A stretch of 64,000 bases of DNA from Sipunculus nudus. Its lineage: Eukaryota; Annelida; Sipuncula; Golfingiida; Sipunculidae. Under the pieces are notes generated by a model that worked only from the letters and a program-made list of their open reading frames with translations, made no database searches and was not told the DNA's origin. The stretch covers positions 3,424,339-3,488,338 of the forward strand of contig CM049316.1 in NCBI GenBank assembly GCA_026874595.1, in the 5' to 3' direction. The position numbers and the translations under genes are program-made. Positions 19,102 through 62,542 of this stretch are shown here, piece after piece. Each line of letters begins with the position of its first letter. Positions within the stretch are counted from its first letter, which is position 1.

Positions 19102-22100
19102 GTAAGTTCTGTCAAACATTTGGTCTTCATTGAGCAAAAAAGAGATTTTTAGCAAACCTGTGAGCTTATGCGATGGTGTGGCATCATCCGGCGTCAGGCG
19201 TCCGTCGGTTAACCCATACTATCTTGAAAACGGCAAGAATTAGCATCACGAAACTTTATGCATAAAATTAGTCATCTAAAAAACTCTATTGGATTTTGCT
19301 TATTTTTTTGGCTAACTGCATTTTCTTAGATTTCATAGGGAAAAAGCTTAAAAAATCTTCTTCTCCGAATATGTTCAGCCAAATTGTCCAATATTTTAAA
19401 GAGATGATTCCTGGAACAATCTCTCTCAAGTTTGTTCGATCGGTGATTTTTGGCCAAGTTACAGGAAGTTGAACTTAGTCATCTGTCCAAAAAAGCATAC
19501 TAAAATTACAATCTCAGAAATGGCTTGAGCTATCATCACCAAATTTTATGCCAATGTTGGTCACATGAGTCATATCTGAAATTGAGGTATTGGTGGCGCC
19601 ACCTGCATCGGCCTTTTTTGTTCGGGGGTCATCAGTGCCCATATCATACTGACAGCTACAAATAACTTCTTCTCTGAAACAAAATGGCCAAATTGTTTAA
19701 TATTGCACAGAAATGATCCTAGGGTAGTGCTTTCTGAAGTTTGTTCAAATGGTCTCAGTTCAGTGACTTTTGGCTAAGTTATGGGAAGCTGAATTTAGTC
19801 ATATGCCATAACAGCCCATTTTAGCTAAGTGGCTTCAAAAATCTTTTCTCAAAAACACTGGGCCAAATTCTTAAATCTCACACATTAATTATCCTTAGAT
19901 GTTGATAATTCAAGTTTGTTCAAATGGTCTCAGTTCAGTGACTTTTGGCTGAGTTATGGGAAGCTGAATCTAGTCATATGCCATAACAGCCCATTTTAGC
20001 TAAGTGGCTACAAAAATCTTCTTCTCAAAAACCACTGGGCCAAATTCTTAAATCTCACACATTAATTATCCTTAGATGTTGATAATTCAAGTTTGTTCAA
20101 ATGGTCTCAGTTCAGTGACTTTCGGCTAAGTTATGGGAAGCTTAATTTAGTCATATGCCATAACAGCCCATGTTAGCTAAGTGGCTACAAAAATCTTCTT
20201 CTCAAAAAACCACTTGGCCAAATTCTTACACATTAATTATCCTTAGATGTTGATAATTCAAGTTTGTTCAAATGGTTTTGATTCAATGATTTTAGGCTGA
20301 GTTATGGGAAGCTGAACTTTGCCATTTTGCTGTATTTTCCCATATGAGTTATAAACCTACAAAATGTTTTTCGACTGATGATGATACTGAGGCCAGTTTG
20401 TTTAATATTTTGCAAGAATAATTCCCTGAATCATTCTTATAATAATTGTCTTTTATGGTTCCAAAAAATGAATTTTGGCTGAATTATAAAGATTGAATTG
20501 AGTCATTTTACCAAATATGTTAGCTGTGTGAAGCAGACACATCTAGCCTAGCACCAGTTTATCAGCATCCATTACATCATGCCTCTAGACATTAAGATGT
20601 CAGGTTATCTATGGAAAATATTGACAAAAATATTTTTTAAAAGCTTTTAAAAAATGTAGATTTATGATGTTACATATCATCTGTACACTAACTCATAATT
20701 TCTCAGGAATAGCGGGAGCTACCATCCCCAAATGTTATGCAATTATCTGTCACATATCAAATGTTGATGGATTCAGTTTATTTTTGCTATCTGCATTTAC
20801 GTAGATTTTACAAGGAAAAAGCTGAAAAAAACTTTAAAAAGTCTTCTTCTTGTAAACAGTCCAGCCAAATTGTTCAATATTTTACAGAAATGATCCCAGA
20901 GGCGAGCCCTCTCAAGTTTGTTCAAATGGTTTGTGTTGGATAAATTTAAGCAGAGTTACATAACAGGCCAAAATTGTGTATGTTTCTTGAATAGGTTGAG
21001 AAACTGCCAACTGTTTCAGATCAAGAGTTCATTCAGTGCAGCCAAATATAGGTCAACAGTTCAATCAGTGCAGCCAAACACAAGGCATGTGATCACCTCA
21101 TGGGCAGCATGTGATCATCTCATGGGTAGCATGTGATCACCTCATGAGTATCATGTGATCACCTCATGGGTGTCATGCCCCTCAGGGCTGCATATGGAGC
21201 CAATCTGTGAGCTTATGCAATTGTGTGTCTACTATTTCAGATTTGGCAATAGGCAAAAGGTCAGCCTGGATTTATTTATAGCTTTGTCAGACTGCCAACT
21301 GTGTCAGATTATGCAACAGGTCAAGAGTTCACTCAGTGCAGCCAGGTACAGGTCAAAAGTTCACTCAGTCTAGCCAGGTGCAGGTCAAGAGTTCACTCAG
21401 TGCAGTAGCCTGAGTCAGTAATTTGTCACAGTACACTCAGGGCAACAGCCTTTCTCACCTAAGCCTGGTCAGCCCCGTGCATCAGACTCAAGGTAAGTTT
21501 GATGTATTGGCCTGATATTCTGACCTGTCTATGTGTCTTTAATGGCTTTCTCGTTCACAAGACAGGTGTCGCCATCTCGCTGACTTTTGCAAAGTGTATT
21601 TGCCTGCTTAATTCTACAAAAGAATTTGATATATCAGCCTGAAATTGGGCATATTTGTTCAGCATTGAAGCGTTATACCTGGTGTATATCCATATGCACA
21701 GGTTCGCATTAGGCCTGTAGGCCTTGTTCAAAGTTAATGACATGATGTTTTTAAAACCAGGCAGTGTAGTACAGTAGATATCAGGAGTAAATTCATGGAT
21801 GTCTAGGTGCAGCTCGTTATGATTGCAGGCCACTTTCCAAGTCATTGCTCCTCCTTAAAAACCTCCATGTTTAGACACATATTTTCAGTGAACATTTGGT
21901 TTCAGGAGTATTTTTCTGCTTCTTTATCTAATGGCATGTGTGAACTTGGTACTTGTGTACTTGTCCTGAGACTTTACAAGCTATCAAGTTTTCCAATGAT
22001 GTAATTCCAGCCATTATTATGTGATATATGATTCAGGAGCCAATTTTTGTTGTCACTGTTCTCATATAGATTTCCAAACCTCTTAGAAGGAAAAGAATTC

Positions 22101-61358: not shown

Positions 61359-62542
61359 ATTAGCTCAGCTGACTGAAAGTCATCTGAGCTATAGAGATCA
61401 CTCTTTGTCTGGAGTCCATCTGTCTGTCTGTCCATCTGTCCGTCCGTCCATATACCAAGCACAAATTGTAACAGCTGGACCTGAAATCTTCTAACTTAAC
61501 ATCCAAGGAGGTCCATCAAGTATCTCCATGGAACCCTTAAATTATGTCTCTGTTACCCATATTCCCTGTGCTATTGGGCTTAGAAAATTTCATGTCTGGG
61601 ATTATTTATCATTTTATGTCATGTTTAAAGAGTGATGGTGCTACTCAGTTGTTTTCATGTGGCTTCTTACTGTATACTGTTTCACGAGAAAATTTTGCCT
61701 ACCAATGATCATGGTTTCATAGTTCATGATTAATCAAACTTCTGCTAATTTCCACCTACAATTTCTTGCAATTTCTTGGAGGTTATTCATATTTTGCCCT
61801 GTCTGCTCACTCCGTTTCCCCTTACCACTCAATTCATACCTCTTTTTACCCATACCACTCTGATTGCAGCAGATACACATTGTCGCTTGTCGACTACCCA
61901 TATTCTAGTTGTGATACATTATTCTGTGATTTTCTGTTATATAAGTTTCTATGTTTAATAAAAAATTTTAGGAACCTGTGTCAAGAGTTTCCTCCTTAAC
62001 TTCCTTTTCTTCCCAGAAACTTCCTTTTCTTCCTGGAAACTTCCTTCTCTTCTCTGTAGAGGGAAGAAATATCTATCTTCCCGCAAGAATGCCAACCCTG
62101 TTAGAAATACCCCCCAGAATAATTAAAATTTGATACCATAGCTCCAGTATCTGAACAATTAAAGCATTGATCACTATGATTCTTTGCATGCATATTCATC
62201 AGGGGGTGTTTCATCAATTCCTGCAGACTGGTGCTGCCACCTGGATTTTTTCATATTTTTACACATTTTTTTCTCAATTTTTGAGACCTCCAAAGATGCG
62301 GTTGTCTGTGACCAGGGCACAAATCGTAACCATTGGACCTAGAATCTTCTTACTTGACATCCAGGGAGGTCCATGTAAATTCTTCTTGGAAATCTGAAAT
62401 TAGGTCTCTGTTACACATATCCTTTGAGCTATGTTTCAGTTGAATTGGGATACCACCTATAAATTTGGTATACAGATGATAAAATTCCTTTTGTTAATGT
62501 ATTCCTGGTCTGCTGAGCATCATGACCCCCCAGGGTCACTTG
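61359..62542 (+). mobile_element. family A element copy A5, about 1.2 kb, decayed
   Basis: Starts ATTAGCTCAGCTGACT with AGTCATCTGAGCT and GTCTGTCC-type repeats. It ends CTGCTGAGC, the hairpin GACCCCCCAGGGTC and ACTTGT at about 62542. The interior resembles A3 units but is interrupted by a family B 3' fragment. In the presumed NAE1 intron 1. Confidence 0.65.
61800..61912 (+). mobile_element. family B 3'-end fragment B3
   Basis: Matches the last 110 bp or so of B1 and B2: CCCCTTACCACTCAATTCAT, GCAGATACAC, the hairpin GTCGCTTGTCGAC and CATATTCTAG. The 5' part of the element is missing. Confidence 0.7.

Follow-up and report, generated by a model that had tools for sequence, protein, structure and literature searches.

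Why should copies of unrelated repeat families, lying side by side, be found on the same strand? The question is raised by a stretch of 64,000 nt of the Sipunculus nudus genome (contig C11, positions 3,424,339-3,488,338, hereafter the window; the assembly, of 1.43 Gb, has 153 contigs labelled C1, C8, C13 etc.), in which four families, A, B, C and D, are represented. All four are almost certainly HINEs, i.e. non-autonomous Helentrons. An earlier note on the window had drawn attention to the plan of the A, B and C ends, but the strand pattern of the copies outweighs this architecture in importance. To our knowledge, the way in which elements of the Helitron type choose their target strand is an open question. 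If the orientation is indeed nearly uniform locally, along genes, then single-stranded DNA in transcribed regions would be indicated as the target and old insertions would constitute a fossil record of the direction of transcription.

Co-orientation of neighbouring copies

The sequences characteristic of the four families are very frequent in the genome. Counting exact matches, forward plus reverse, with the reversed motif as control, gave 51,385 matches for the A 10-mer (control 296), 7,203 for the B motif and 6,069 for the C motif (control 0 for both), and 22,967 for the D core (control 0), which is repeated in tandem so that the last figure is not a count of elements. The strand totals were balanced; the local order was not. 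It was surveyed on a single contig, C1, from one end as far as 14.17 Mb, using the B and C places among the matches listed, merged (n = 184). Of 63 pairs of consecutive copies no more than 20 kb apart, 59 had the same orientation, as did 28 of the 30 made of one B and one C. As a function of spacing, agreement was complete at 0-5 kb (19/19) and 40/44 at 5-20 kb, then decreased to 17/26 at 20-40 kb, 32/51 at 40-80 kb and 13/23 at 80-160 kb. When copies were linked into clusters at 20 kb, 33 of the 37 clusters were pure, against a mean of 13.5 and a maximum of 25 in 20,000 shuffles. Without the first 1.2 Mb of the contig (150 copies), the corresponding values were 39/43 for the pairs up to 20 kb and 25/29 for the clusters (shuffle mean 11.4, maximum 22).

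Family A was tallied between 96 and 832 kb of contig C1, where the matches listed comprised 67 on the minus strand versus three on the plus strand; past 832 kb the A matches listed include none on the minus strand, whereas B and C are numerous on it, and this was put down to the listing and left out of account. Of the 25 D arrays, whose direction was defined as that of AGGTCAAAGG, as in the window, 23 had neighbours less than 20 kb away and 21 of these matched the majority strand of the neighbours; agreement was 18/19 within the first ~1-Mb domain and 3/4 outside. Among the open-access papers listed in searches on Helitron orientation and strand, we recognised no report of a local strand pattern.

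Another regularity was noted by eye on contigs C1-C4, where 346 places were listed: at 58 of the first 100, a stretch resembling the 3' region of C was followed ~350-375 bp further on by the 5' end of A, on the same strand. This C-to-A arrangement could be either a chimera or a preferred site.

Orientation relative to genes

The orientation of the copies probably follows that of the genes. To relate the two, 15 stretches that separate or surround kinase exons (L045-L051 and L054-L061) were picked blind to repeats, the strand of the gene being given by PF00069; in one set of ten kinase-exon windows eight were read, those at C4:17.52 Mb and C14:60.14 Mb being left out. Eight stretches contained A-D sequence and all 12 elements found there were in the sense orientation: A, B and C in L045, C in L050, A in L054, D in L055, B in L057 (ending ~30 bp before the kinase exon match), A in L058, two A in L059, A/D and B in L061. 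Counted over stretches (8/8 sense), a two-sided sign test gave 0.008, with the proviso that some flanks may fall outside the gene and that three of the 12 elements are weak matches, namely the A of L045 (5' motif with 4 mismatches, 6 in the reverse reading), the A of L058 (3' end only) and the D of L055 (71% and 82% over ~120-140 nt). The seven other stretches (L046, L047, L048, L049, L051, L056 and L060) were without A-D sequence.

The window itself shows the same tendency. Three open reading frames with parts of the Rubicon homology domain (PF13901) lie on the plus strand at 41091..43048, i.e. 41091-41333 (E = 4.8e-14), 41692-41916 (1.5e-4, below the curated cut-off) and 42830-43048 (7.4e-9); the other candidate exons of this Rubicon-like gene had no Pfam match. 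Upstream of these exons, at 19-38 kb, the copies are on the plus strand, as is copy B2 just after them, and they may be located in introns of the gene. An exon of mitochondrial ATP synthase epsilon (PF04627, E = 8.4e-15) is present on the minus strand at 2085..2210; minus-strand copies are present on either side of it, at 11-14 kb on the right and, on the left, in L010, which is 4-7 kb outside the window. The switch from minus to plus copies falls between the minus and the plus host genes.

The ATP synthase epsilon gene, the extent of which is unknown, was excluded from the gene tally, together with four motif-only genes of contig C1. On that contig, among the matches listed, sense cases were a kinase exon at 11,192,008 (-) with a C at 11,185,479 (-), an epidermal growth factor (EGF) motif at 7,338,033 (-) with a B at 7,340,376 (-), and an immunoglobulin (Ig) motif at 7,001,303 (+) with B copies at 7,009,644 and 6,987,235 (+). 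Genes defined by a motif only may be due to chance, as judged from the reversed controls relative to hits (141 to 1,020 for EGF, 46 to 127 for kinase and 605 to 1,216 for Ig). A frequent match to the Ig motif, GATTCAGGGAATTATTCTTGC, was rejected as a gene, being the reverse complement of a stretch of the C core (~20411 in the window).

How the strand may be chosen

Potential sources of the transposition proteins are present in the genome. There were at least 143 matches to PF14214 (150 of the 195 candidates scored), in open frames of up to 2,426 aa. A Helentron of contig C8 combines DUF6570, OTU, Helitron_like_N (Rep), PIF1 and Exo_endo_phos in one frame of 2,250 aa; in a copy on contig C13 the Rep and endonuclease parts were identified and the helicase part was not read. 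At least two lineages exist, RIEFQARGSPHAH and RVEFQQRGSPHIH, both with the S of the RGSPHxH motif, which is of the Helentron type according to the part of the published description available (PMC4067079). N-terminal to Rep, the autonomous proteins (L019 and L052) carry DUF6570 together with a domain of the OTU or Herpes_teg_N-like type.

These Rep/PIF1-helicase/endonuclease Helentrons are the putative partners of A-D, which they would mobilise in trans. Recognition by Rep would involve the subterminal inverted repeats together with the CTWGTT-bearing 3' palindrome, and a single strand would be inserted between two T. This single strand would be joined to the displaced non-template strand of transcribed germ-line DNA, in a transcription bubble or an R-loop, hence the sense orientation of the copies. 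Taken as a whole, the explanation that HINEs are moved by host Helentrons and inserted strand-selectively along genes, via transcription, is quite possible, though far from assured. As to its parts, insertion into the non-template strand is put forward tentatively, and with slightly more reserve we suggest that strand-selective joining to that displaced strand made tens of thousands of copies a record of the direction of germ-line transcription, with unrelated families agreeing in gene-sized domains. Both the cause of the bias and the target strand are what we infer; exposure of one strand over gene-sized domains is what fits the pattern best.

Several observations weigh against insertion via transcription. 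On contig C1, pairs more than 160 kb apart were still on the same strand in 14 of 20 cases, and the almost exclusively minus-strand domain of the first 1.1 Mb exceeds the usual size of a gene. Two B copies are antisense to the neighbouring motif: one at 9,133,392 (+), 1.7 kb from an HRDLKAGN at 9,135,114 (-), and one at 9,907,702 (+), with an Ig motif 16.5 kb away at 9,924,165 (-). Co-occurrence with splice donors gave no clear sense excess, with 101 antisense versus ~114 sense places, the latter an estimate made by eye on the basis of 33 places among the first 100 (346 in all), 58 of the 100 being the co-oriented C-to-A repeat, again by eye. There is no control for the strand bias from a repeat other than Helentrons, the one intended having proved to be the core of the HINE-like D. 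As for the partners, the earlier note had envisaged a Rep/Hel element with the A, B or C termini; at the thresholds used, these ends were detected neither in 30 Rep loci and the 1.5 kb flanking them nor in longer flanks of the contig C8 and C13 Helentrons. Finally, the non-HINE DNA of the plus domain shows on the plus strand a mild excess of TT (2669:2298) and of T4+ (248:188), runs of five T or more being balanced (74:70); such an imbalance is too small to yield ~94% agreement.

Three other explanations of the strand bias have to be considered. HINEs might insert either way, the antisense intronic copies being then removed by purifying selection. We regard this as unlikely. For retroviral and LINE elements, it is well known that selection acts on the orientation of intronic copies, as far as the available parts of the sources go (PMC3517506, PMC1794541), and poly(A)-signal hexamers are confined to the antisense strand in copy C1 (0 to 5), copy C2 (0 to 4) and D (0 to 3). 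Selection could therefore act on C and D but not on B, which has no such signal on either strand and nevertheless agrees with C in 28 of 30 pairs; in A, the signals are about equal on both strands or more numerous on the sense one. Nearly all antisense copies would, moreover, have to be lost, and the bias of human intronic elements is the opposite one, i.e. antisense (PMC3517506, PMC1794541, same parts).

That the direction of the replication fork sets the orientation, by insertion into the single-stranded lagging-strand template, appears improbable. The ~1-Mb minus domain at the start of contig C1 is admittedly large, and divergent genes can flank replication origins, but agreement elsewhere falls over 20-80 kb, below the usual size of replication domains, and all eight HINE-bearing kinase stretches match the strand of the gene. 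A bacterial precedent for insertion of this kind is provided by IS608 and ISDra2 (PMC5371812, seen in part). Very unlikely, in our opinion, is a simple inheritance of orientation, in which new copies enter the T-rich tracts of older ones on the same strand and clusters grow one way. A2 is nested in A1, these two copies hold more long T runs than A runs, and the co-oriented C-to-A arrangement is nearly constant in spacing (58 of the first 100 places, by eye); however, copy C1, B2 and A3 are without T-run excess, apart from A2, B2 and the B fragment no plus copy of the window was seen inside another A-C copy, and elements standing alone near kinase exons have the orientation of the gene. Nesting is not a ready explanation either, because agreement persists in pairs 5-20 kb apart (40/44).

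Termini, insertion sites and known counterparts

The A, B and C ends described in the earlier note are real. Exact counts in the window were compared with those in dinucleotide shuffles: motif A was found 6 times (0.06 expected) and motif B 4 times (0.03 expected), an excess of about a hundredfold, and motif C once (0.05 expected, with one occurrence also in 5 of 100 shuffles). Five of the six A matches correspond to element ends; the sixth, at 8807, was discarded as it is inside an open reading frame with no A end around. Boundaries were set by a mismatch scan with a longer end consensus, which gave 0 matches in five shuffled windows. On the plus strand, family A is represented by A1 (23600..28690), which is split by the nested A2 (24964..27569), A3 (32598..35629) and A4 (61361..62543, its 5' end placed by scan and its 3' end, near 62543, by eye). 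A further copy, A(-), is on the minus strand (11341..13947); its inverted repeats I1, I2, I4 and I5 are at 96-98%, and it is 96-98% identical to A2 across most of its length. All remaining copies are on the plus strand: for B, B1 (36351..37806), B2 (43738..45478, within a 20-bp satellite) and a 3' end inside A4 (61868-61910) for which the scan detected no 5' end; for C, copy C1 (19150..21728) and copy C2 (29578..31456). Tandem cores are of 337 bp in A1, 280 bp in B1 and B2, 177 bp in copy C1 and 127 bp in copy C2. Judging from the six-frame list of open reading frames alone, with no family search, the copies contain short frames only.

Family D is a fourth HINE-like family, with a AGGTCAAAGGTCAAGGTC core of ~289 bp, an A-type 3' palindrome and a terminal CTAGTT. 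It occupies 48740..50976 (+) in the window, where the start is approximate and the 5' end was not located. In L010 (4818-5601) and L061 (50-410), its core is next to the 5' end of an A with the same orientation.

Eleven 3' ends were inspected by eye (A1, A2, A3, A4, A(-), B1, B2, the B fragment, copy C1, copy C2 and D). CTWGTT, i.e. CTTGTT or CTAGTT, closes nine of them, the exceptions being A4 (CTTGTA) and copy C2 (CTTCTT). A and C, in addition, both start with TAGC. The statement that the families have no common end sequence was too strong. The 5' motif does come back inverted before the 3' end, over 10 nt in A3 and B1, 9 in A2 and 8 in copy C1, where the match is either 8 nt exact or 11 nt with one mismatch; the C variant which is commoner in the genome, AGCGAACCTGTG, matches the inverted copy over 11 nt. 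Single-strand folding of the ends was scored as z relative to shuffles. The fold-back of the 5' end was borne out for A and B (z of -5.1 for A3 and -4.2 for B1, with none of 200 shuffles as good), and it is absent in copy C1 (z of +0.6), as the earlier note implied. The proposed 3' hairpins held in part: the palindromic sequence is present in A, B and C, and in D as well, but the fold stood out in B1 (z of -2.5), weakly in copy C1 (-1.7) and not in A3 (+0.7), where the 3' motif is nonetheless a perfect 12-nt palindrome. The tail, announced as 6-11 nt, measured 7 nt after the palindrome in A, 13 in B and 4 in C.

Two empty sites could be read, that of A2 from other A1 monomers and that of B2 from satellite monomers. 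In both, the filled site differs by an additional TT, with nothing else duplicated; the 4-9 bp target-site duplications named in the earlier note as refuting its reading are thus absent at these two sites. Canonical Helitrons have a 5' TC end, a 3' CTRR with a hairpin, and insert between A and T. Here, insertion adds TT in a run of T and subterminal inverted repeats are present. The elements also differ from terminal inverted repeat transposons and miniature inverted-repeat transposable elements, their repeats being subterminal and asymmetric and the two empty sites without duplication.

Of nine open reading frames of the window searched together against Pfam, one matched. Scans for Rfam families (gathering threshold) and tRNAs in the window gave no match, nor did Pfam for the plus strand at 1-9 kb and 14-23 kb. 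An intact frame of 940 aa on the minus strand (8531-11350), without Pfam match, begins beside the 3' end of A(-) and is perhaps a coding transposon. Long open frames on both strands characterise two arrays, one of a 36-bp unit in 84 copies (54995-58019) and one of a 42-bp unit in 17 copies (58840-59556).

The Helentron-type reading of the earlier note fits the ends, the TT insertion without duplication, the apparent lack of coding capacity, the tandem cores and the presence of Helentrons in the genome. Its corollary, several independent partners or recognition of structure only, is unsupported in view of the common CTWGTT, the A-type palindrome in D and the published oyster precedent (see below). 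Separate autonomous lineages for A, B and C, with ends proper to each, are unlikely: 5' motifs and cores do differ between families and at least two Helentron lineages are present, as mentioned above, but CTWGTT is common to 9 of the 11 3' ends, the A-type palindrome extends to D and the Rep loci examined yielded no partner bearing A, B or C ends. A search for the ends of the autonomous C8 and C13 copies themselves gave nothing above chance.

HINEs have been described as carrying inverted repeats that are subterminal and palindromic, as well as a 3' palindrome, with a T-rich or TT target left unchanged, and microsatellites or tandem repeats (PMC4067079, in the part available). The present families resemble HINE/DINE-1 elements of that description in having a subterminal repeat at the 5' side which recurs inverted before the 3' end, a 3' palindrome, a TT target without other change, tandem repeats in some copies and an apparent lack of coding capacity, and differ in that no autonomous partner with shared ends was found here; the available part does not mention a local strand pattern. 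In the oyster Crassostrea gigas, the accessible part of the report describes eleven Cg_HINE elements in one genome; in some of them neither the flanks nor the cores are related, and others have common flanks but different cores (PMC7492417). One plan across sequence-unrelated families was therefore already published, so that the end architecture is not new and the S. nudus families add members to a described class. Comparing descriptions, not sequences, the likeness includes several families per genome, satellite-like cores exchanged as modules, the TT target, a 5' part made of a subterminal inverted repeat (subTIR), an inverted repeat and a microsatellite, and a 3' part made of a subTIR and a palindrome; the difference is that both orientations are reported there, with no local pattern described in that part. 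Integration in both orientations is compatible with balanced totals together with local coherence.

Beyond Helentrons, the intronic retroviral and LINE elements also have an orientation biased relative to genes, but theirs is antisense and ascribed to selection in the parts consulted (PMC3517506, PMC1794541), whereas it is sense in our sample. With the bacterial IS200/IS605 elements (IS608, ISDra2), the likeness is functional only: the orientation of single-strand insertion records a strand-asymmetric process of the host. There, according to the portion of the source available (PMC5371812), the enzyme is unrelated and the process is the replication fork; here, it is apparently transcription.

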